A DNA stretch of 22,419 nucleotides, taken from IMG/VR virus record IMGVR_UViG_3300030451_002458, positions 1 through 22,419 of that record; one strand, given 5' to 3'. Below, one piece after another: positions 1,213 to 17,975 of this stretch. This stretch comes from a virus. The notes under the pieces are model-generated. The model was not told where the DNA came from. It saw only the letters and a list, made by a program, of their open reading frames with translations, and did not search any database. Both the position numbers and the translations under genes were made by a program. Position 1 is the first letter of the stretch. Each line of letters starts with the position of its first letter.

Positions 1213-1914
1213 CTACAAGAATATCTTCTGAGAGAGTCGATCTTCCTCCTCATACATCCCTGCCGTAATGAATGGTGCTTGTAATACATCTGCTGGTATA
1301 ATGATTGCTCTGTTATATTCCAATCCAAACATCATAGACTGTTTCCATGCAAGAACTGATTCATAAACATCTTTCCTGAGTGAGAAGGCATCAGCATCTG
1401 CGTACATGTTCTTCATGTCCTCATGAATAGTATTCTTACCAGCAAATGCCCAAATGTCAGTGCCACCCATTGAGGGCATATTTTTGTTGAGAAAAATTTC
1501 TACGGTAAATTGAAACGGACTTGGGTTTTCGGGATAGTAAGCCTGAAATGGTAAAAGTTGCAATGGTTGTTTAGCAACTGTGTCCTGATTCATCCAATCT
1601 ACCAAGAAAGGCATGACTGCCATATTCTTTTCAATATATTCCTGATCCGTTGGTCTACCCCAAAACTGCTCATCATAACATAGTTCTTTGAATAATCTCT
1701 CAGTATTTTTCCTTAACTCTTCTGTTTCATATACCGATCTTGTTCCTGAGTGATGATTTATAAGATTTATATCTTCTCTCTTTGGTAACTTAAATGCTAA
1801 CTCTCTAACCTTATCTGGATTTTTGTAAAAGTTATCTATCAACATAGCGTTCCTTTTTTCAGGTCCTATGTCAGTTATAGCAATAACTTCTAACTCATCA
1901 CTTAATTCAAACAT
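1213..1914 (-). CDS. Hypothetical protein, possible degenerate 2OG-oxygenase-like fold
   Basis: A 233-aa protein with AAGGA about 5 nt before its ATG; its start overlaps the upstream 62-aa gene by 8 nt. Residues about 25-42 (LIDNFYKNPDKVRELAF) match the pattern that opens many phage and marine bacterial 'NFY.dPd.VR..A' proteins (DUF6445-like, related to prolyl-4-hydroxylase-like jelly rolls). The end (NRAIIIPADVLQAPF... RLSQKIFL) matches the last two strands of that fold. I cannot find an HxD...H iron triad, so either it is not catalytic or the assignment is wrong. It lies a few genes from three clear oxygenases, which fits a diverged relative. The family call is tentative; the gene itself is secure because of length, spacing and ribosome binding site. 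Confidence 0.6.
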   Translation of the reverse strand: MFELSDELEVIAITDIGPEKRNAMLIDNFYKNPDKVRELAFKLPKREDINLINHHSGTRSVYETEELRKNTERLFKELCYDEQFWGRPTDQEYIEKNMAVMPFLVDWMNQDTVAKQPLQLLPFQAYYPENPSPFQFTVEIFLNKNMPSMGGTDIWAFAGKNTIHEDMKNMYADADAFSLRKDVYESVLAWKQSMMFGLEYNRAIIIPADVLQAPFITAGMYEEEDRLSQKIFL

Positions 1915-2095
1915 CTTTGTTCCTTTCTTCCACTAAATGTTCAACTTCTGAAGCAACTTTATCCATCACCTCTCTTACATCAGTTCCTGATCCAGAGGTA
2001 TGGTAGTAGTTTTGTCCTTTCGGAGCATAGTGTCTGGTGTGGAGTGTCCAATGCCACTGCTTTACACCCTTAGAATACCAGAATTGTAAACGCAT
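1907..2095 (-). CDS. Small hypothetical protein, 62 aa
   Basis: An aromatic- and histidine-rich small protein that begins MRLQFWYSKG and has a predicted C-terminal helix (DVREVMDKVASEVEHLVEE). The first half could form a beta-hairpin (FWYSKGVKQWHWTLHTR). There is a faint, unproven resemblance to DUF1508/YegP-like small domains, which have an 'aromatic-K-G-W-W/F-L' hairpin followed by 'SGxGY'. It is the first gene after the tmRNA and its terminator, and it overlaps the next gene by 8 nt in a different frame, which suggests translational coupling. A TATAAATT box lies just upstream. I do not recognise a function. Confidence 0.55.
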   Translation of the reverse strand: MRLQFWYSKGVKQWHWTLHTRHYAPKGQNYYHTSGSGTDVREVMDKVASEVEHLVEERNKDV

Positions 2096-2103
2096 AAAGT
2101 TTT

Positions 2104-2111
2104 AATTTATA
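2104..2111 (-). promoter_or_regulatory. Candidate late promoter (TATAAATT)
   Basis: The minus strand reads TATAAATT (one mismatch to TATAAATA) between the GC hairpin at 2119-2133 and the ATG at 2095. The ATG lies only 8 nt downstream, so a transcript from here would be almost leaderless. Alternatively this AT stretch may simply be the tail of the terminator. Confidence 0.3.
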
Positions 2112-2118
2112 TATGAAA

Positions 2119-2133
2119 GGGGGCAGAGCCCCC
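2119..2133 (-). terminator. GC-rich hairpin after tmRNA, possible terminator
   Basis: A perfect 6-bp stem GGGGGC / GCCCCC closes an UCU loop on the minus strand and is followed by UUUCAUAU. The U-tract is short, so termination may be partial. It could instead be a protective 3' structure of the tmRNA coding piece that is processed later. Confidence 0.45.
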
Positions 2134-2136
2134 TAT

Positions 2137-2162
2137 GGTCACTTGGTTAACAAGGAGTGACC
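2137..2162 (-). other. Stem-loop in 3' part of tmRNA coding piece
   Basis: GGTCACT (2162-2156) pairs with AGTGACC (2143-2137) over 7 bp, with a second possible short stem CTTG/CAAG inside. It follows the tag stop codon by 16 nt, where tmRNAs have PK2 or a related element. It is probably a structural part of the tmRNA rather than a separate signal. Confidence 0.5.
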
Positions 2163-2178
2163 GATCCCCGATTGCCCC

Positions 2179-2253
2179 TTAGGCAGTAGCGAGTTCGCTA
2201 GTGCGGGCAAATTCTCTTGTGAGAACACGAGAGAATGCTACGATGTTGTTCGC
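2179..2253 (-). other. tmRNA tag-peptide reading frame, 24 aa
   Basis: The resume codon is inferred as GCG (Ala) at 2253-2251, because from here the frame reads ANNIVAFSR, the hallmark start of cyanobacterial tags. Translation continues VLTREFAR, then TSELATA, and stops at TAA 2181-2179. Host tags that I recall are about 16 residues and end in VAA; this one is longer and ends ATA. The codons of the extension are the ones that build the hairpin 2187-2200. Confidence 0.7.
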
Positions 2254-2428
2254 AGCGGTGTCGATGTCTTTAGCATCTGTGTTTGCTCTCCGAGCAGGTT
2301 TTCAGTCATGCTCCTTATACCCTGTCGAAACCATTGCACCCCCTAGCTTATGGAGGTGAGGGGAGTCGAACCCCTGTCCAAAATATCGGTGGCACCACCT
2401 ACATGTCTTTTTAAGTCATACATCAGGA

Positions 2429-3016
2429 CTATACAATCCATTGTATCCAAGAATATCTAGATCCTTTTGTAACTGGAGTTACTTCATGTGGAAACAAATA
2501 CAGTGCTGGGAATACTAACACACCTCCCTTCTTTATGGTGACAGTATGTTCTTCCCAAAATACAAAATCACCACCTTCAAAGTCATCATTCAACACACCT
2601 ACTACACTTGTGACAGGTATGCCTCTGAACTGTCCTTGAAAGAAGTCACGAATATGATCGTAGTGAGGACTAAGATAATCGCCAACATTATACTTGTTGA
2701 ATTTTATACCCGAACTGGCTTCCCAAAATGAACCACCTCCACCAGACCCAACACTATAATAATTATATTTTTCATGGAAGGCATAATGCAACTCCTCATT
2801 TACATGTGGTTGTATTATAGATGTAGCCTCTGGGCAATCTACAGTTGATTGCATCTTTGAATCTTTGTCAAGATCAACCTGTTCATGATCTTGATACCAC
2901 ATGAAATCTCCCCACTGGCGAGAATCCAAATGAGAAACTATCTCATCACATTCCTGATGAGATAGCAAATCATATTCAAATATATGATCTTTAAGATTCG
3001 GGTACTTTAGGACCAT
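2429..3016 (-). CDS. 2OG-Fe(II) oxygenase (prolyl 4-hydroxylase type)
   Basis: A 195-aa protein with the full signature of the P4Hc family. H118 and D120 lie in SPHYDHIRD, H177 in LFPHEVTPV, and R187 in KGSRYS is the 2-oxoglutarate-binding arginine; GGDFVFW forms the typical strand between them. Such enzymes hydroxylate protein prolines or other residues using 2-oxoglutarate, O2 and Fe(II). T4-like cyanophages often carry several, with unknown substrates. It is the last protein gene before the tmRNA. Its start overlaps the end of a possible 49-51-aa ORF (2991-3146). Family assignment is firm; the substrate cannot be read from sequence. Confidence 0.88.
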   Translation of the reverse strand: MVLKYPNLKDHIFEYDLLSHQECDEIVSHLDSRQWGDFMWYQDHEQVDLDKDSKMQSTVDCPEATSIIQPHVNEELHYAFHEKYNYYSVGSGGGGSFWEASSGIKFNKYNVGDYLSPHYDHIRDFFQGQFRGIPVTSVVGVLNDDFEGGDFVFWEEHTVTIKKGGVLVFPALYLFPHEVTPVTKGSRYSWIQWIV

Positions 3017-3140
3017 CTTTTAGCACCTTACTACCAGTTTGTTTGGCAATATATGCCGCTAACTCTGGAGTTTCTTCCCATTCCCAGATTTGATTATGTT
3101 GTGGGTTCTTCTTTTGAATCGTGAGTGTGCGTTTTACCAA
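2991..3140 (-). CDS. Possible small protein with TTG start, about 49 aa
   Basis: The stretch 3017-3093 would otherwise be a gap between tightly packed genes. A minus-strand frame here encodes a plausible peptide (HNQIWEWEETPELAAYIAKQ, then TGSKVLKDGPKVPES) and stops at TAA 2993-2991, overlapping the next gene by 26 nt. It has no ATG. The best candidate start is TTG at 3140, preceded by a strong AGGGAGG about 7 nt upstream; a TTG at 3146 is the alternative. Its 5' third overlaps the end of the 100-aa gene in another frame. Amino-acid composition looks protein-like, but comparison with other cyanophages is needed to exclude chance. Confidence 0.45.
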   Translation of the reverse strand: MVKRTLTIQKKNPQHNQIWEWEETPELAAYIAKQTGSKVLKDGPKVPES

Positions 3141-3396
3141 TTTCAACCTCCCTAGTTAGTAATTCAATTTCTTTTTCAAGGCCAATAATCCTGAGTTCTG
3201 CATCATTAGCCGATCTCTCCAGTGCCCTTACTGAATGAGATATTTTTGCAATCTCTTTTCCAAAGGCATCAATGTTTTGGAGAAGTAAGTTATTTCCAAA
3301 TGACTGAGGGTGTCCCTGTTCTGCGTAGGCAGTATCTTCTACTTCCTCACATCTCTTGAGATATTCTTCTCTTGTCATTCGATTGTTTTCAGTCAT
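3094..3396 (-). CDS. Hypothetical coiled-coil protein, 100 aa
   Basis: A charged, probably all-helical protein. Residues about 45-87 (AFGKEIAKISHSVRALERS then NDAELRIIGLEKEIELLTREVE) show heptad-like spacing of I, L and V, indicating a coiled coil, and the C-terminus is short and polar. Its ATG overlaps the TGA of the upstream oxygenase-like gene by 4 nt (ATGA), a typical coupling. No domain is recognised. Location between oxygenase genes in the late operon gives no clear role; an oligomerising accessory protein is only a guess. Confidence 0.6.
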   Translation of the reverse strand: MTENNRMTREEYLKRCEEVEDTAYAEQGHPQSFGNNLLLQNIDAFGKEIAKISHSVRALERSANDAELRIIGLEKEIELLTREVEIGKTHTHDSKEEPTT

Positions 3397-3920
3397 GAGT
3401 AGTCCATGTAAATGTTTCCAGATATTGTAGTTCCCTCATTGCCTGAGTTTACCATGTGCATTAAGAATGATGGAAATATAATCATACTTCCAGGTCCTAA
3501 CTGCGGCTTATAGTCTAACGCAAACTGAGGTAAAGTGCAACCAAAGTGATTCTGAATGTTATGGATTGAAGGATTAAAGAAAGATGTTCTTGATGTCACA
3601 TCAACATAGATCACAAAACTCCACTGACTATGAGGGTGTATGTGAGCATCTTGATAGTCATGTTTTTGATAAACATTCTTCCATATATGTCCAAACCTAG
3701 CGTCCTTCCCCATCAATTGAGCTGGGTATAGGTTTCTCTCAACAACCTCTGACAAATATTGCCACACCGTTGTTGGAACCTCCTCTGGTTTTTGAGTTCC
3801 AAAACTAGAAGGAACTCCCGAATCCCACGTTGGTTCTAGTGGAGCAAAGGGGATATCTTCAAATTTACTAAGTTCAACCGTATCTTCAAAGATAGGGATA
3901 CTAAAGATTTCTTTTTTCAT
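3393..3920 (-). CDS. Putative 2OG-Fe(II) oxygenase, HxH-type
   Basis: A 175-aa protein. Its core (DAHIHPHSQWSFVIYVDV, residues 91-108) and later GPGSMIIFPSFLMHMVNSG (143-160) match the pattern of the TIGR02466 family of putative 2OG-Fe(II) oxygenases ('N.H.HP....G.YYV' and 'P..L.H.V'). Candidate iron ligands are H93 or H95 with H97, and H155. The usual 2OG-binding arginine near the end is not obvious (EGTTISGNI), so activity is less certain than for its neighbours. The start overlaps the upstream oxygenase stop by 4 nt (ATGA), so the two are likely co-translated. Confidence 0.72.
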   Translation of the reverse strand: MKKEIFSIPIFEDTVELSKFEDIPFAPLEPTWDSGVPSSFGTQKPEEVPTTVWQYLSEVVERNLYPAQLMGKDARFGHIWKNVYQKHDYQDAHIHPHSQWSFVIYVDVTSRTSFFNPSIHNIQNHFGCTLPQFALDYKPQLGPGSMIIFPSFLMHMVNSGNEGTTISGNIYMDYS

Positions 3921-4549
3921 TTTGAAGGTAGAGGATCAGTTCTCATTGTTTTATATACCAGACTCGCTCTGAGTCCACGATATACTTCATTTGGTGGCAT
4001 ACCATGATGCCAAATGTTTCCCTTAAAGAATACAATTCTGCCTGGGGCAGGGTCTACACCTTGCCACTCATCATTTAATTTATACTTTATTTGTCCTCCC
4101 CACTCTGGTGCCCAATGTTTATTGACATAGTAACAGAAACTGAGTCCGTTGTCACATGTACAATCTTGATGAGGCGTTGTATTATGTATCCACTGTTGTC
4201 CATTTATCATTATCTCTCCAAGTTCTACCTTGAATGGGAGAGTGTGCATAACTGCACTGTAGATCATTCTAAAAGCACTGTCCTGTGCAATGTCACTTCT
4301 TTCTGGCGGGAATATCTGTTGTTTTAAAGCTGGTGCTTCATCCCATGTAGGGTCTGCACCTACATCTCTACCATCTTCAGCATACCCACTGGTATGACCC
4401 CAGAACCAATTATATCCAGTCATCACCATATCATGTACATGATGAATGAACCAGCCTGGGAATAAGTTGTCTATAACATAGATTTCATCTTTAGATAGAT
4501 CATACTTTGACCAATCTAGAAACTCTCTATTTCCATCAATGTAAATCAT
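3917..4549 (-). CDS. 2OG-Fe(II) oxygenase
   Basis: A 210-aa protein with a clear facial triad: H127 and D129 in TPHQD, and H181 or H182 in NIWHHGMPP. R191 or R194 follows as the 2-oxoglutarate anchor. PGRIVFFKGNIWHHG is the classic double-stranded beta-helix end motif. The short N-terminal region (IYVIDNLFPGWF) is a typical family opening. It belongs to the diverse cyanophage oxygenase group; the product might be hydroxylated virion or host protein, but nothing in the sequence tells which. It overlaps the upstream gene by 14 nt and the downstream one by 4 nt. Confidence 0.85.
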   Translation of the reverse strand: MIYIDGNREFLDWSKYDLSKDEIYVIDNLFPGWFIHHVHDMVMTGYNWFWGHTSGYAEDGRDVGADPTWDEAPALKQQIFPPERSDIAQDSAFRMIYSAVMHTLPFKVELGEIMINGQQWIHNTTPHQDCTCDNGLSFCYYVNKHWAPEWGGQIKYKLNDEWQGVDPAPGRIVFFKGNIWHHGMPPNEVYRGLRASLVYKTMRTDPLPSK

Positions 4550-11233: not shown

Positions 11234-12622
11234 TTATTGTATTCCATAAGAATCTCTTACGAGATTTAGAGCAGATACGTTCCGCCCTTCAGTAATTTCA
11301 AAATGATGTCTCAAACTACGAATTAAGTAGATTCCGCTTAGTTCCTGATCAGATTCTTTTGTTCCAGTTCCACCTGATTCCTCAGGTCCAACTTTAGGGA
11401 AAATTAGTCTAATCGGTGTACCAACTCTCAAGTTAATATTACATGGTATAGTTATATTTAGGGACTGTTGGAACAGCAATGTGTATCTAGAGAACGACTT
11501 TGCCATGTCAGAAATGGTTCTACCAGAACCTTTTTCGTTCAATTCGTGATCCCACATTCCCGAATCACCCAACCTTACTAATACTCTTGAGGCGAATTTT
11601 GTTATATCACCTTGGGGTATAGGAACAGAGTCGCCAGCAGTCTTTATGTTGGCTTCCTCAATTTCCTTTGCTAAGTTAAATTGTATTGCATCTGCTTTCC
11701 AGTTTAACGGATCATAGAAATATGTCAAGTTACTGTAAAGACCAACTCTTAAATTTTTCTGTAGATTAGTAGTCTTGTCAGTATAATGATTGATAATCTG
11801 TTTTTCATTCTCACTACCATCTCTGCTTATCATACCAGAATATGTGTATGTTTCTACGCCATACTCTTTTGATAGATCCTGAGAAGTTATATCTTCTGGG
11901 TATTCTACTTGTGTGGCATCTATCATTTTATCCACGGATCTAAAATTAAATCCATCATAGTCTTCGTAGAAAAAGAATCCAGCAGTTCCTTTTGCCTGAC
12001 TACCAGCCTCACCTGTAGCATTACCTGTCACAGGCACCGCCTTTGGGCATAACCATGTACAAGTATAAAATGCCTTTTTATTGTTTCCTATGAATCCATA
12101 TTCAGTGGCAGATGGTTCTATCTTCTTTATTCTTGCTTCATCAACCTCAAGTATATCCTTTAATATTGTCTCTACATGAGAACTGATTTGTGCTCTGGGG
12201 AATCTATTTCTACATCTGACAGTTTCATTCTTCAAGTTTTCTAGTGTACAACACTTAAGTGTGAATATCTCCTGTCCTTCCGTCTGTGTTAATCTTTCAA
12301 TGGCAACAACATACAGTGGATTTTCATTTGAATCACCAAATGTTATATCACCGTAATCAGTTCCAATAACTATATCTATTCTCTCATATCCTCTGATAGG
12401 AACTAAACTATACAATGCTTGAGTAGTAGATATTTTTAAGTCTACTGTAATAGAGGGTGATAGTATATCCTCATAATAATCGAATGACACCACAGAGGCA
12501 GTAATATCAAGATTATCTACCTCTCTCTTTTCTTCATCTTTTGACCCACCCTTCTTGAAAATAATCTTATTTTCTGGGGTTATTATTATTCTTTTGAAGT
12601 GAGTTTTTAAGAGTGATGACAT
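11234..12622 (-). CDS. 27: Baseplate hub protein, gp27-like
   Basis: A 462-aa protein directly upstream of the gp5-like gene in the hub cluster. It begins with a beta-rich domain (DITASVVSFDYYEDILSPSI, then TVDLKIS... LVPIRGYERIDIVIGT) typical of tail hub proteins of the gp27/gpD fold. It ends with a second beta domain (QSLNITIPCNINLRVGTPIR, then SGIYLIRSLRHHFE), a pattern common to hub proteins ('..V.G..I.l.fp... G.YLI..l.H.f'). T4 gp27 is 391 aa. In the virion, gp27 trimers adapt the six-fold tube to the three-fold gp5 spike. The start is TAATG-coupled to the transglycosylase gene. Identity rests on these patterns and on context. Confidence 0.65.
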   Translation of the reverse strand: MSSLLKTHFKRIIITPENKIIFKKGGSKDEEKREVDNLDITASVVSFDYYEDILSPSITVDLKISTTQALYSLVPIRGYERIDIVIGTDYGDITFGDSNENPLYVVAIERLTQTEGQEIFTLKCCTLENLKNETVRCRNRFPRAQISSHVETILKDILEVDEARIKKIEPSATEYGFIGNNKKAFYTCTWLCPKAVPVTGNATGEAGSQAKGTAGFFFYEDYDGFNFRSVDKMIDATQVEYPEDITSQDLSKEYGVETYTYSGMISRDGSENEKQIINHYTDKTTNLQKNLRVGLYSNLTYFYDPLNWKADAIQFNLAKEIEEANIKTAGDSVPIPQGDITKFASRVLVRLGDSGMWDHELNEKGSGRTISDMAKSFSRYTLLFQQSLNITIPCNINLRVGTPIRLIFPKVGPEESGGTGTKESDQELSGIYLIRSLRHHFEITEGRNVSALNLVRDSYGIQ

Positions 12623-14370
12623 TAACTAGCACCTAAACTATTGAGTGTTAAAGTAGCAATGATTGCACCTTCATCCGCAGGCATAAGAACTGTGCCTGTT
12701 TGCATTTCACCACCCATTGAAGCTGAAGCTATACTAGCATCACCTTTATTGTTTACTGGTGGCACCGCAATAATGTTTGTTCCTCCTCCGCCGCCTGGTT
12801 GGTCATAAGGCATGGATTTGTTTGGAAGAGTCATTGCCTGTATCATTTCTCCAGATGTTTCAACTGAAGATGCTGAAACCTCACTGGTTGTGTTCTTATT
12901 CAATTTGTCAACAACTTTGGATGCAGCCTCACCTTTAGTTATACTACCATCTTTATTCAAATCTAGACCCTTATTCGCTTCATATCTTTCCACAAACTTA
13001 TCATTCATTGCACCTTCACCAAACAAAACAAAGTCATCTGGTTTACCAACTGCAGCAGGGAATAATACACTCATATACAAATCAGAAACATCCCCCTCTT
13101 TACCGTCCATACGACCAGTATAGTTCTCTTCTAAAAACTTTTCAACATATTCTAACTGTTCTGTTCTGGTCATTGCAGCTAACTCCTCTGTACTGGTTCC
13201 CAATCCCTCAGCAGTAGAAGGCATGAATTGTATCAAACCAACAGCACCCGACCCTGCCATATTTGTTTGTGCTGGATCAAATGTTCCTCCAGTTTCAAAA
13301 TCCATAACTGCAAGTAGATCTTCTGTAGGAACATTTAACTTCTCAGCAAGGTCGCCTACACCAGACATGAATGATTCATCTTTAGCAACTTCTTCTGGAA
13401 GAGTATAACTTGCAGTACCCACAGACTCTCCAGCCATAGTTTGAAGTGGTTTCGCTGATGTGAGTATAACCTCTCGTAACGTGCTTCCATCTTCTTGCAA
13501 TACCTCTCCCTTTACTTCCTCTTGGACTTCCTCTTCAGTCTTATTGGCAAAAGGATTCTTAATACCTAACCATTTAGGTCCAAGGTATCCATCACCTTTT
13601 TCAGCTCCAACAAAATTTCTTATGGAATTTACTACTTGAGAGTTGTTTATAAACTCAGCAGTATCTTTCACAAAATTAACAACTTTCTCACCAGTATCCT
13701 TTAGGAAGTTCACGATTTTCTCACCTATGCCTGGTTCGTTACTAAACAATCCACCTCTCTTTACAATGAAAGCAAACTTCTCTGTCATCTCTTGAAAGGC
13801 ATCAAGATCAACACCCTCTTTACCAAATTGTACAAACTTCTCATCATTTATCTCTTGTCTTGTCTTTCCCTCATCCTCCCCTTCTTCTTCTTTAGGTTCT
13901 TCTGGAGTTTGTTCTGGCGCTTGTTCTGGTTTCTTTGTACTTATATCTGCCTTATCCTTATCAATATCCTTTGCTTTTCCATCAACAGTATCGTCCATCG
14001 TCTTTTTACTCTTATCCAACTGCTTCTGTTCTTCTCCTAAATCATCCTTCATTTTATCTACATCGCCACCATACTGAGTATTGAGTATGTCCGTTGGACT
14101 CTGAGATCTGGCTTTCAATGCAGTTCCTAAAACCATTGGTAGTATTATGGCACTACCAATCAACATCTTTCCTAACTTTTTACTACCACCACCATGAAAT
14201 GTGTTTGCGAACTTTCTCGCTTTCTTCATAGTTGATTTGCTAGGAAGACCACCCGATAGACCCTTAGACTCTGTTCCCATGAATCTAGCAAATCTAGTGA
14301 TTACGGTCTCTGCGCCAGTTACCGCTTTCGATGCTTTCTGTTTTACTTTTAAAATTGATGATTTATTCAT
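12622..14370 (-). CDS. Tail protein with lytic transglycosylase (SLT) domain and EF-hand loop
   Basis: A 582-aa protein. The basic N-terminus is followed by a hydrophobic helix at 67-85 (GKMLIGSAIILPMVLGTAL). An acidic, lysine/glutamate-rich helical region (~100-180) and amphipathic repeats (GEKIVNFLKDTGEKVVNFVK) come next. Residues ~345-460 form a GH23-type SLT domain: catalytic E359 in AVMDFETGG, then GSGAVGLIQFMPST (373-386). This fold cleaves peptidoglycan between MurNAc and GlcNAc. Residues 470-481 (DLNKDGSITKGE) are a textbook EF-hand calcium loop. It is TAATG-coupled on both sides between the possible tape measure and the gp27-like hub. It could itself be tape-measure-like (T4 gp29 is 590 aa). 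It probably supplies the wall-degrading activity missing from the gp5-like protein. Confidence 0.75.
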   Translation of the reverse strand: MNKSSILKVKQKASKAVTGAETVITRFARFMGTESKGLSGGLPSKSTMKKARKFANTFHGGGSKKLGKMLIGSAIILPMVLGTALKARSQSPTDILNTQYGGDVDKMKDDLGEEQKQLDKSKKTMDDTVDGKAKDIDKDKADISTKKPEQAPEQTPEEPKEEEGEDEGKTRQEINDEKFVQFGKEGVDLDAFQEMTEKFAFIVKRGGLFSNEPGIGEKIVNFLKDTGEKVVNFVKDTAEFINNSQVVNSIRNFVGAEKGDGYLGPKWLGIKNPFANKTEEEVQEEVKGEVLQEDGSTLREVILTSAKPLQTMAGESVGTASYTLPEEVAKDESFMSGVGDLAEKLNVPTEDLLAVMDFETGGTFDPAQTNMAGSGAVGLIQFMPSTAEGLGTSTEELAAMTRTEQLEYVEKFLEENYTGRMDGKEGDVSDLYMSVLFPAAVGKPDDFVLFGEGAMNDKFVERYEANKGLDLNKDGSITKGEAASKVVDKLNKNTTSEVSASSVETSGEMIQAMTLPNKSMPYDQPGGGGGTNIIAVPPVNNKGDASIASASMGGEMQTGTVLMPADEGAIIATLTLNSLGAS

Positions 14371-16061
14371 TACATTGCATCCACTATATTAAATACCGCT
14401 TTAGCATGTTGTATGTGTATATCATCTAGTCTCATGGCAGGGATCATAGGTAGTTCATTATTCATCTTGGTTTTATTTCTTTGCATAGGTTTGTTTCCCT
14501 GCTTAGAATCTGTAGGCATAGGCATTGTAGTAACCTGTCCACCAGAACCACCTTCATCCACAACACCTGTTGCTGGTTGAGATATGTCAGTAGCGATCTC
14601 TGACATAGCATCTGAATTTGATGTATCACCTTCAATCGTACTAGTGTCTGGAGTTTCGGCAGCTGACACCTCTGATGTACCACCCTCACCACCTGACACT
14701 TCACTATCCTCTTCTCCTTTTAAACCACCACTTGATGATTCTGTTGCATTGATGACAATGTTTCCAGCGGGATCTTCAAGACTCTTCCTAAATGCACTAG
14801 CATCAAACTTGAATGTTTTTCCAACATTCTGAGTTACATTAGATCCACCTTGTTCTCCTCTTTTTCCCTCTTCACCTTTATCACCCTTGATCATGTTTTT
14901 GAGACCATCCATTGCAGTTCCACGCTTATCAAGATCAAACATGTTTCCTGTAGCGAAGTCTAAAGCACCAGTTATTCCTCTCATAAAACCTTGAGGTTTC
15001 TCCTCTTCCTTTACTGGTTCTACTGTAGACTCTTCTTTTGTCTCTTCACCACCTGATGTTGGAGTGATAGTCATTGTACCATCTGCATCAGTCTTCAACG
15101 TAGCATTAGGTGATCCAGTAACAGTTTCTTGTGGTTTAACTTCGCTCTTCTGTTCTGTCTCTCCACCTGATTCATCCTCTACCTTTGGTGGTTCATCTAC
15201 TTGTTCTACACCATCTACATCGCCTGCGTTATCTTCTGTCTTGGTATCATCTTTCTTATCCTCTTCCTTATCATCTTGTTTCTTTCTACTCTTCATCTCC
15301 AATATTCTTAGTGTAGAAGCCATGTCCTCCACAAGTTTATTGAATCTCTTACCATCTATCTCATCTTTAGCTCTTACTTTACTATCTTTCTTTTTACCAA
15401 ATATCTTTTTAGCAAGGAATCCAGCACCACCAATAAGAGCACCACCCAATGCAACTTTACCTATCATCGGAGCAGCGGCAGCAAGTGCCATTGGTGCAGC
15501 TTTCAAGGTCATTGCCATCAAACCTATCTTGGCAATGTTTGTTATAAGACCTTTAAAGAAACCACCTTTAGGTTTAGTTCCTTTGGCCTTCGCCATCTTC
15601 TCGATAAGATCAACAACTATTCCCTTTGCTTCAGATAGGAAGTCGATTGTTTTTTGTAGAGACGATCTTAATCCACCTAGACTACTTGAGAATTGGTTTA
15701 ATGAATTTAATCCTCCTGAGAATATTGAACTTAAGAACCCTTGTGGATTAAATTGTTGTTCTGGTTGTACTGCCTGTTTTATTCTAGGAATCGCTTGTTG
15801 AATCTTACTGTCTATTAGTTTTGGAAGACGAGTAAGAACACTACCACCCATGGCTGGTTGTTCTGGTGGCTGCAACATCTGTGGAACAGATGCTAAAGGC
15901 ATCTGACTCCTTACTTTACTTAAACTCTTTTTACTTTGAGGACCCTGTGCTACACCTTTTAGAGCTCTACCGACTCTACTTTTACCAAATATCTTACCAG
16001 CCTTGGCAGTTTTTCTACCAAAGCGTCGAGCACCTTTTAATAGTCCTGATAGTTTAGCCAT
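14370..16061 (-). CDS. Tail protein in tape-measure position, 563 aa
   Basis: Starts MAKLSGLLKGARRFGRKTAK, a very basic N-terminus. A long hydrophobic/alanine-rich segment at ~174-220 (LMAMTLKAAPMALAAAAPMI, then GKVALGGALIGGAGFLAKKI) could cross or enter a membrane. It is followed by a highly acidic/lysine linker (~225-360). Residues 393-406 carry four collagen-like G-x-y repeats (GDKGEEGKRGEQGG). The C-terminal part is Ser/Gly/Glu-rich and ends in a helix. The size (T4 gp29 has 590 aa), the hydrophobic segment and the place right after a gp26/-1-frameshift chaperone pair all match a tape measure protein. The first codons overlap the 63-aa ORF by 8 nt. No sequence motif proves it. Confidence 0.55.
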   Translation of the reverse strand: MAKLSGLLKGARRFGRKTAKAGKIFGKSRVGRALKGVAQGPQSKKSLSKVRSQMPLASVPQMLQPPEQPAMGGSVLTRLPKLIDSKIQQAIPRIKQAVQPEQQFNPQGFLSSIFSGGLNSLNQFSSSLGGLRSSLQKTIDFLSEAKGIVVDLIEKMAKAKGTKPKGGFFKGLITNIAKIGLMAMTLKAAPMALAAAAPMIGKVALGGALIGGAGFLAKKIFGKKKDSKVRAKDEIDGKRFNKLVEDMASTLRILEMKSRKKQDDKEEDKKDDTKTEDNAGDVDGVEQVDEPPKVEDESGGETEQKSEVKPQETVTGSPNATLKTDADGTMTITPTSGGEETKEESTVEPVKEEEKPQGFMRGITGALDFATGNMFDLDKRGTAMDGLKNMIKGDKGEEGKRGEQGGSNVTQNVGKTFKFDASAFRKSLEDPAGNIVINATESSSGGLKGEEDSEVSGGEGGTSEVSAAETPDTSTIEGDTSNSDAMSEIATDISQPATGVVDEGGSGGQVTTMPMPTDSKQGNKPMQRNKTKMNNELPMIPAMRLDDIHIQHAKAVFNIVDAM

Positions 16062-16245
16062 TTCTTCTTGATGCTTCCCTTGCTTTTGCTTTTAGGTTTT
16101 CTTCTTCAATATGTAATTTAAGCAATCCAACGTAGATATCTCGTTCCCAAGGCGGCATGTTCTCTATCTCTGTTAAAGAGTATTTGTGAAACTGCATGAG
16201 TGCGAAATTGATTCGGAAGTATGTCTCAAGATTTATGTGAGACAT
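16054..16245 (-). CDS. Tail assembly chaperone extension (63-aa ORF, -1 frame of gp26)
   Basis: A small helical protein (MSHINLETYFRINFALMQFH, then IENMPPWERDIYVGLLKLHI) typical of the short ORF that follows gp26 in T4-like phages, sometimes called gp51-like. Its ATG is in the -1 frame of gp26 and the frames are open between them (R-L-G), so a -1 shift at 16254-16260 would give a fusion of about 303 aa. The ATG lies within the 5' strand of a 10-bp hairpin and has no Shine-Dalgarno nearby; GGAGGG is over 20 nt away. Independent initiation therefore looks poor, and expression by frameshifting is the better reading. The helical C-terminus would then be the 'T' part that contacts the tape measure encoded next. 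Confidence 0.7.
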   Translation of the reverse strand: MSHINLETYFRINFALMQFHKYSLTEIENMPPWERDIYVGLLKLHIEEENLKAKAREASRRNG

Positions 16246-16275
16246 ACCTAGGCGAAAAAATCGGCCAGTCCCTCC
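16219..16275 (-). promoter_or_regulatory. Programmed -1 ribosomal frameshift cassette
   Basis: In transcript order there are four elements. GGAGGG (16275-16270) lies 9 nt before a canonical slippery heptamer T-TTT-TTC (16260-16254) in the correct phase (GAT TTT TTC GCC TAG). A 6-nt spacer containing the gp26 TAG follows. Then comes a perfect 10-bp stem, GTATGTCTCA (16247-16238) with TGAGACATAC (16228-16219), around a 9-nt loop. This is the same three-part layout as E. coli dnaX: an upstream SD-like stimulator about 10 nt away, a slippery run and a downstream hairpin. Confidence 0.82.
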
Positions 16276-16964
16276 AGTATAACAGTGTTCTTTTTCTTGG
16301 TGTTTGGATTAACTACTTCTAATGTATGTTGTAATTTAGGCATAGTTTGGAAGAATTTTTCAATCTTTGCAAACTGTGCTGATGTTAATGACTCGACCCA
16401 TTCTTTAAGTTCTTTCTTAGTACACTCAGAAGCTGAGAACATCTCCTCTTCATTATATACCATATCAATGCAAGATCCTATAATACTAAATGATTGATCA
16501 ACTGTATCTTGGTTATCTAAAAAGTTAGTGTCAATAAACTGACTAAGAGAAGGATACTTCATCTTGACAGTATATCCATCTGCCAATTCAATATCTGTTG
16601 TATGATCCTCTGCTGTTATCACTTTAATATCATTGATTGGAACATTAACTCCAACCTCAGTTTTTCCATCATCACCACATGTAATTAAAAGATCTATTGA
16701 TTCACCAACAGATTTACCACGGATATTTAAAAACAAATATTCAATGTCAAAGGCAGGGAGAGTATCAATTTTGATTCCCTTTGTCAAAACACATTCTTTG
16801 ATTACTTGTTTTACAGCATTTGTGATCTCTTTCTGATTTTGTCCTTCTAATGCAAGTATCAGTATCTTTTCTTCTTTTACCAAGAACGGTCTATACTTTA
16901 CAGTCTTTCCGTTTGAAGGTAATACCAATTCATACTCAGAAGTCGTAATTTTAGGTAAAGGCAT
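16248..16964 (-). CDS. 26: gp26-like baseplate hub/tail assembly protein
   Basis: A 238-aa protein (T4 gp26 is 208 aa). The start (PLPKITTSEYELVLPSNGKT then VKYRPFLVKEEKILILALEG) and the helical second half (ECTKKELKEWVESLTSAQFA) match the 'T4 bacteriophage base plate protein' family (gp26). In T4, gp26 is needed for hub assembly; the position before a tape measure suggests a lambda gpG-like chaperone role. The last codons GAT TTT TTC GCC TAG carry the slippery site for the fusion with the 63-aa ORF. There is no clear Shine-Dalgarno, and a TCTAAATA box lies 20 nt before the ATG. Upstream gp54 ends only 37 nt away, so this may be a separate late transcription unit. Confidence 0.8.
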   Translation of the reverse strand: MPLPKITTSEYELVLPSNGKTVKYRPFLVKEEKILILALEGQNQKEITNAVKQVIKECVLTKGIKIDTLPAFDIEYLFLNIRGKSVGESIDLLITCGDDGKTEVGVNVPINDIKVITAEDHTTDIELADGYTVKMKYPSLSQFIDTNFLDNQDTVDQSFSIIGSCIDMVYNEEEMFSASECTKKELKEWVESLTSAQFAKIEKFFQTMPKLQHTLEVVNPNTKKKNTVILEGLADFFA

Positions 16965-17000: not shown

Positions 17001-17975
17001 TTAAGCTGTATTTGATAGATTTTGTAAGGCATCAAAGTTACCTTTAACTTCTGTTTGTCCACTGTTGCCTTCAGTAACTTCTTTATCCATCTTATTCAGA
17101 ATCTTATTCTGTCCCGAAGTAGTTGGTAGTGTAGTTAGTTCATATCCAGACTTGGTGTAGTTGGATATCATAACGTATCTATCGTAGGCAAACTCAACTG
17201 TTATCTGTAGAACTGTTGAATTTTGATATGTCAATGCTACATCTTGTATTGCAGTTGGAAAGATGTTTATAAATTTATAACTTAGGGCATCAGGTGCAAA
17301 CATATTACCTGTAAGTTGAGAAGTTGAAGATCCAACATTTCTCTCAAACTTAGTTATCGACATGGTTTTCTTATATTCATTTGGATATCTGAATCTATGG
17401 AAACCATATTTATCTACAGCATCAGGATATCCGCCAGGAGCTCCTCTTACTGCTGGTGCTTCTTCTCCATCTCCAGCAGAAAAATATAATGGATTTATAA
17501 AGTTTATCCACTCTTGGAATAGTCTCAAGGATGAATAATCTGCTGGTATGTAGTAACTGATAGCAATATCATTATATGCTCTCTGTGATGCAAACTTTTC
17601 TGTTATACCTTGTCTACTTCCAGTTTCAGTAACAACAGACATGGTAGATCCTGGCAATACTGCTTCATTTGCCAGTAATTCAAACCTATGAATACCATTG
17701 TGATTATCTAAAACTCCACACGATGCTAAGTAGTCTTCTAAACTCGCTTCATCTCTACCTCCTACTGTTCCTGATACAACATTTGATATACCAGGCCCAA
17801 GATCCATAGTGACTTTATAGAACGTTGATAAAGCAGGAGCTCCCAACGATGTCTGAAAATCCTCTAGGAAATTTATACCAACATTACCTCTGGATTTTAT
17901 ATTTCCAGGCGTTATATCAGCACCAAAAGGGGTTATCTTTTGAAAGTGATTTTTTTGATTTCGTTCCTCAGCCAT
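17001..17975 (-). CDS. 54: Tail-tube initiator, gp54-like baseplate protein
   Basis: A 324-aa protein (T4 gp54 is 320 aa). Features of tube-initiator/tube folds are visible: MDLGPGISNVVSGTVGGR near 56-75, VLPGSTMSV (~106-114), a strand-helix-strand core (NDIAISYYIPADYSSLRLFQ then EWINFINP), and the C-terminal FINIFPTAIQDVALTYQNST followed by VEFAYDRYVM (~233-270). The last is the 'P..I....L.y......v.vtFaY' signature. In T4, gp54 caps the hub and nucleates gp19 tube polymerisation together with gp48, whose homologue is encoded divergently nearby. No strong Shine-Dalgarno precedes the ATG at 17975. Confidence 0.68.
   Translation of the reverse strand: MAEERNQKNHFQKITPFGADITPGNIKSRGNVGINFLEDFQTSLGAPALSTFYKVTMDLGPGISNVVSGTVGGRDEASLEDYLASCGVLDNHNGIHRFELLANEAVLPGSTMSVVTETGSRQGITEKFASQRAYNDIAISYYIPADYSSLRLFQEWINFINPLYFSAGDGEEAPAVRGAPGGYPDAVDKYGFHRFRYPNEYKKTMSITKFERNVGSSTSQLTGNMFAPDALSYKFINIFPTAIQDVALTYQNSTVLQITVEFAYDRYVMISNYTKSGYELTTLPTTSGQNKILNKMDKEVTEGNSGQTEVKGNFDALQNLSNTA

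Follow-up and report, generated by a model that had tools for sequence, protein, structure and literature searches.

A conserved −1 programmed ribosomal frameshift most likely joins gene 26 (gp26) to the small gp51-family ORF that follows it, both in the T4-like cyanophage studied here and in its relatives. The two products, gp26 and the gp26-51 fusion, are very probably the short and long forms of a tail assembly chaperone pair. The slippage event, its efficiency and the chaperone role are predicted here from sequence comparison and structure models. The window, that is, the whole stretch of DNA analysed, comprises 22,419 bases of IMG/VR virus record IMGVR_UViG_3300030451_002458. The features that concern us are the following:

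16248..16964, minus strand: gene 26, 238 aa, zero-frame product and proposed short tail assembly chaperone (TAC-N); PF12322, phrog_150
16270..16275, minus strand: SD-like GGAGGG, separated by 9 nt from the heptamer downstream (from the sequence)
16254..16260, minus strand: slippery heptamer T_TTT_TTC in the gp26 frame (GAT TTT TTC GCC TAG; from the sequence)
16248..16250, minus strand: gp26 stop codon TAG, inside the 6-nt spacer GCCTAG (from the sequence)
16219..16247, minus strand: 10-bp stem-loop containing the gp51 ATG, 6-nt spacer after the heptamer (from the sequence and its fold)
16247-16238, minus strand: 5' arm of the stem, GTATGTCTCA (from the sequence)
16237-16229, minus strand: hairpin loop (from the sequence)
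16228-16219, minus strand: 3' arm of the stem, TGAGACATAC (from the sequence)
16054..16245, minus strand: 63-aa gp51-family ORF, −1 frame; would form the C-terminal domain of the frameshift product (TAC-NC)
16057..16964, minus strand: 303-aa product of the proposed −1 frameshift, with gp26 up to ...GLADFF joined to RLGMSH... (conceptual translation)
12622..16061, minus strand: the two next ORFs, 563 and 582 aa, at the tape measure position (from the ORFs, their position and the annotation of relatives)

The preliminary description of the window had recognized a cassette leading from gp26 into the 63-aa ORF; every element was found in the sequence where it had been placed, and the strand, which had been left unsaid, is the minus strand. 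The 3' end of gp26 reads ...CTG GAG GGA CTG GCC GAT TTT TTC GCC TAG and is followed by GT ATG TCT CAC. A Pfam scan identified gp26 as PF12322 over its full length (residues 9-238, E 2.3e-73), and a PHROG scan matched it to phrog_150 (baseplate hub, E 2.9e-78). In the same scan, the 63-aa ORF matched phrog_634 (baseplate hub assembly catalyst, E 5e-25), which assigns it to the gp51 family. Upstream of gp26 lies a tube-like ORF (17001-17975) that matches phrog_45. The 563- and 582-aa ORFs downstream gave no tape-measure HMM match; relatives annotate a tape measure at this place, and the second of the two ORFs carries an SLT domain and matches phrog_196. By its position and by the annotation in relatives, the next gene would be the tape measure gene. 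The two ORFs overlap at a TAATG near 14370, likewise in S-SSM7, and a single long ORF occupies the place in other cyanophages such as ACG-2014d (L083). Elsewhere in the window (1213-4549, minus strand), several consecutive ORFs of 175-233 aa resemble by eye the 2-oxoglutarate/Fe(II) oxygenase-type proteins that cyanophages commonly encode.

TTTTTTC is not enriched in the window, with four copies found and 7.2 expected; the other three copies are antisense to predicted genes. As the heptamer is not rare in the window, a single genome is weak proof, and the argument depends on the relatives. T_TTT_TTC was present in the gp26 frame and at the same place in 80 of the 80 closest IMG/VR relatives. 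The search was widened with divergent queries and named phages to 238 non-redundant junctions, and T_TTT_TT[C/T/G] was in phase in 219 of them. Among the phages that also kept the site were those of Pelagibacter, Methylophilales, Sinorhizobium, Rhizobium and Ochrobactrum, the KVP40-like Vibrio phages and Aeromonas phage Ahp1; a KVP40-like gp26 used as query in the viral scan returned no loci. The exceptions among the 238 junctions were the Ackermannviridae, the T-even phages (where gp51 lies elsewhere), Vibrio phage K397 and one broken ORF (L180). The phase of the heptamer, which the preliminary description had proposed to compare in relatives, is thus conserved. It is this conservation, and not the frequency of the motif in the window, that ruled out a chance heptamer.

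Codon choice at the site pointed in the same direction. The base before TTTTTC was T in 219 of 219 sites, although seven different residues were encoded there (S, D, N, A, T, G or H). Of the two Phe codons, the first was TTT at all 219 sites, compared with 71% elsewhere in gp26, and the second was TTC at 204, compared with 29% elsewhere in gp26. Since the relatives are not independent, the tests were based on representatives with less than 60% or less than 50% identity. All 38 representatives below 60% had TTT as well as a T-ending preceding codon, and TTC was found in 31 of the 38 (p = 4e-11 against gp26 codon usage); the TTC excess was still significant in the 25 representatives below 50% (p = 2e-6). 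As read from these alignments, the constraint at the heptamer is one on nucleotides. The distance from the heptamer to the stop codon was 10 nt in 187 junctions and 7, 13, 16 or 31 nt elsewhere, a variation which indicates that the heptamer is kept and the stop is not. In one junction (L194, 2229) the heptamer is in place, but the zero frame runs on to a stop 31 nt after the start of the heptamer and so lengthens the tail of the short form; such spacing was seen in six junctions.

The frame of gp51 is open through the junction in the relatives, and the gp51 domain is intact even in the 76 of 219 junctions that have no ATG among the first ten −1 codons and in the 53 that have no ATG, GTG or TTG there. 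Given an intact domain with no start codon, frameshifting is the simplest route to gp51 in those phages. One could argue that gp51 is instead a separate 63-aa protein, made by termination-reinitiation at its ATG, and that the heptamer is a mere Phe-Phe codon pair. The window does carry the ATG, 2 nt past the gp26 stop, so that coupled re-initiation could also yield the free 63-aa protein. An ATG also lies within ten codons in 143 of the 219 junctions, separate gp51 genes are annotated in GenBank records, and Vibrio phage K397 has a TAATG overlap without the heptamer. This model is quite unlikely, however, not only in view of the startless junctions but also because the heptamer does not vary at synonymous positions and persists through amino-acid changes. 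In addition, the gp51 ATG of the window has no SD close to it and is buried in the stem, and the homologous gp51 of T4 is known only in fused form. Of the GenBank records concerned (L083, L084, L085, L087, L089), those of ACG-2014d and S-SSM6b leave gp51 unannotated, and those of P-HM2, HTVC008M and Melnitz place its start at an internal Met, which gives 30, 45 and 47 aa, respectively; such missing or short entries are likely annotation errors caused by the frameshift.

Two candidate stimulatory elements flank the heptamer, as judged from their presence and conservation. On the 5' side, GGAGG or GAGG was found at a 10-nt gap upstream of the heptamer in 164 of the 219 relatives. This results from the choice of GAG at the Glu codon four codons before the heptamer, where GAG was used in 164 of 193 cases, compared with 28% elsewhere in gp26. 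A 10-nt gap is the spacing of SD sequences that stimulate frameshifting, as in dnaX.

On the 3' side, RNAfold added two outer pairs to the 10-bp stem, giving 12 pairs, and the 76-nt junction region folded better than its shuffles (z = −3.1). The ATG of the small ORF, at 16245, lies inside the stem, as the preliminary description had noticed. In the relatives, the evidence for the stem was taken from the percentage of paired positions and from a tree-based count; raw double-changed cells were not used alone as proof, because 2-column slides gave more such cells. The stem pair (13,27) was TA in 61 sequences, GC in 15, AT in 8 and GT in 6, a compensatory change. In parsimony counts that depend on one FastTree of gp26, both sides of stem pairs changed on 12 branches compared with 3.8 expected, nine of these changes leading from one standard pair to another. 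Junctions with the gp51 ATG folded well, and at least 9 of 11 pairs of the window's helix were kept in 80 of 122 of them, against none of the 65 ATG-less junctions. Within the window's part of the family, the expected conservation of the stem was therefore borne out by compensatory changes; it did not extend to all relatives, and a universal stem was rejected, the window's stem being mostly absent from ATG-less relatives. On this comparative evidence, the stem is selected but facultative, mainly in lineages keeping the gp51 ATG. That a strong 3' stem is missing in many relatives counts against the frameshift model.

The link between stem and ATG raises the question of what the hairpin does. 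On the gp26 tree, stem and ATG were lost on the same branch four times. The association is partly mechanical, as loss of the ATG itself breaks three of the counted pairs, but pairs that do not involve the ATG were also weaker in ATG-less junctions. Part of the role of the stem may therefore be to hide the gp51 ATG. A hairpin that serves mainly this end rather than stimulating slippage would concern the stem only and be compatible with frameshifting; we find it rather doubtful, considering that the 6-nt spacing suits a stimulator and that a different strong stem occupies the same place in several ATG-less relatives (L121, L122, L126, L109, L133, L164). A dual-purpose hairpin is a further, tentative reading, less likely than not: where the gp51 AUG is kept, it would both stimulate the −1 shift and lock the AUG, so that gp51 would arise solely within the gp26-51 fusion, which would protect the short:long ratio, and loss of the AUG would relax selection on the stem.

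The same elements bear on whether it is the ribosome that slips. RNA polymerase slippage on the T run could also produce mRNAs joining the two frames, and a run of T6-T7 is present at nearly every site. Most sites, however, have only 6 T, compared with the runs of about 9 A or T on which such slippage is described in bacteria (PMC5009743), the X_XXY_YYZ phase is kept in all 219 sites, and both the SD-like element and the covarying stem would act on ribosomes. Slippage by the polymerase is thus highly improbable, and ribosomal frameshifting is the model we retain.

The identity of the products was approached through T4, where gp51 is needed for assembly and absent from the particle (PMC3004832). 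T4-type gp51, a single ORF of about 250 aa, matched phrog_150 nearly end to end (13-280/282), its N-terminal part being gp26-like, and its C-terminal part matched phrog_634; short and long forms thus share the N domain. The 303-aa frameshift product aligned end to end with T4-type gp51 across the junction (hhalign, E 3.5e-25, 240 columns). From this alignment, T4 encodes in a separate gene what its cyanophage relatives would make by frameshifting. In the phages with a separate fused gp51, the heptamer was absent from the end of T4-type gp26 in 8 of 8 cases. The structure model of gp26 (pLDDT 90) had the HK97 tail assembly chaperone (2ob9) as the first of 350,542 PDB chains, a weak match (probability 0.90, E 0.42, 62 columns); sequence searches of the PDB with gp26 and gp51 gave no match to a chaperone. 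The 63-aa gp51 domain gave a confident three-helix model (pLDDT 89), and a fold search of the PDB with it returned no match. Taken together, the T4 gp51 alignment, the T4-type gp26 genes lacking the heptamer and the weak HK97 match suggest the short/long chaperone pair. Sullivan et al. 2010 (PMC3037559) describe cyanophage gp51 as lacking the first ~200 residues of T4 gp51, and the portion of that text searched invokes no frameshift for the short protein.

Other arrangements of these genes were observed. In the Ackermannviridae (L094 PhiSH19, L267-L281), a gp51-like −1 ORF without ATG directly follows gp26 (phrog_634, E 0.0027; phrog_9633), and the junction, GA(G/A) ATT TTC ATT TAA, has no canonical heptamer. 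In Pseudotevenvirus Invicta (L292 1501-2794) and Slopekvirus Matisse (L293 1501-2795), a fused gp51 gene is arranged in tandem with gp26 on the same strand, plausibly an intermediate between the one-gene frameshift and the divergent arrangement of T4.

In layout the site resembles E. coli dnaX, with an SD-like element ~10 nt upstream, a one-base heptamer and a stem-loop ~6 nt downstream, but the dnaX heptamer is A_AAA_AAG instead of T_TTT_TTC and its shift shortens the protein, whereas here the shift extends it. T4 shares with this locus gp26 as the short form and a gp51 made of a gp26-like domain and a domain like the 63-aa ORF; there, however, the long form is a separate duplicated, fused gene on the other strand, whereas here one gene and a −1 shift would give both. 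In T4-like phages, TAC genes were reportedly identified by Vladimirov, Gautam & Davidson 2022 (Virology 566:9-15), in a paper that, by its title, proposed a mechanism other than frameshifting. According to the PRFect article (PMC10885494), Vladimirov et al. 2022 reported that some T4-like phages have a short gene and, apart from it, a fused gene for the long form. A study of the Vandenendeviridae/Andersonviridae TAC locus (Pseudomonas phage Adele, PMC12846349) cites Vladimirov et al. 2022 when it refers to poly-T −1 shift sites in the TAC-N genes of T4-like phages, so that frameshifting in the TAC genes of T4-like phages has probably already been reported. The Adele locus likewise has a conserved poly-T −1 site at the end of TAC-N in a myovirus, predicted from comparative genomics; it differs in its GTTTTT motif and its phage lineage, and the part of the article consulted reports no SD or stem.

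A close functional analogy, already drawn in the preliminary description, is the lambda gpG/gpGT family (Xu, Hendrix & Duda 2004; reviewed in PMC5009743). In both cases a slippery −1 heptamer close to the 3' end of a short ORF leads into a small domain in the −1 frame, the locus lies directly ahead of the tape measure position, and many short products are expected for few long ones. In contrast, neither the Pfam nor the PHROG scan returned a sequence-family match to lambda G/T, the heptamer here is T_TTT_TTC flanked by an SD-like element and a stem, and the gene lies in a T4-type baseplate hub cluster. The heptamer phase and codon choice, the startless gp51s, the homology to T4 gp51, the T4-type gp26 without the heptamer and the weak HK97 match nonetheless support a gpG/gpGT-like logic.

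Under this model, most ribosomes would end at the gp26 stop and produce the 238-aa short chaperone. A minority would pause at T_TTT_TTC, held upstream by the SD-like GGAGGG bound to 16S rRNA and, in the window's lineage, also by the downstream hairpin. Both Phe-tRNAs would then slip back one base, and translation would enter gp51 to yield the 303-aa protein with the junction ...DFFRLGMSH.... By analogy with gpG/gpGT, the tape measure protein may be coated by the gp26 part and connected through the gp51 part to the tail tube or the baseplate hub, the short/long ratio being set by the frameshift.

The surprise is moderate, as frameshifted tail chaperones and T4-like TACs had already been described; the present analysis adds scale, codon-level statistics, the SD-like element, and the covarying stem with its link to the gp51 ATG. 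The results support a history in which one frameshifted gene serves most of the superfamily, while in the T4-type phages a duplication and fusion of the gene took its place. In annotations, cyanophage gp51, now entered as a separate or truncated gene or missing altogether, should become part of one frameshifted gene. A 2010 review (PMC3004832) described T4 gp51 as essential for hub assembly and its function as unknown, and the frameshift model would offer a concrete mechanism for gp51 in the abundant marine T4-like phages.
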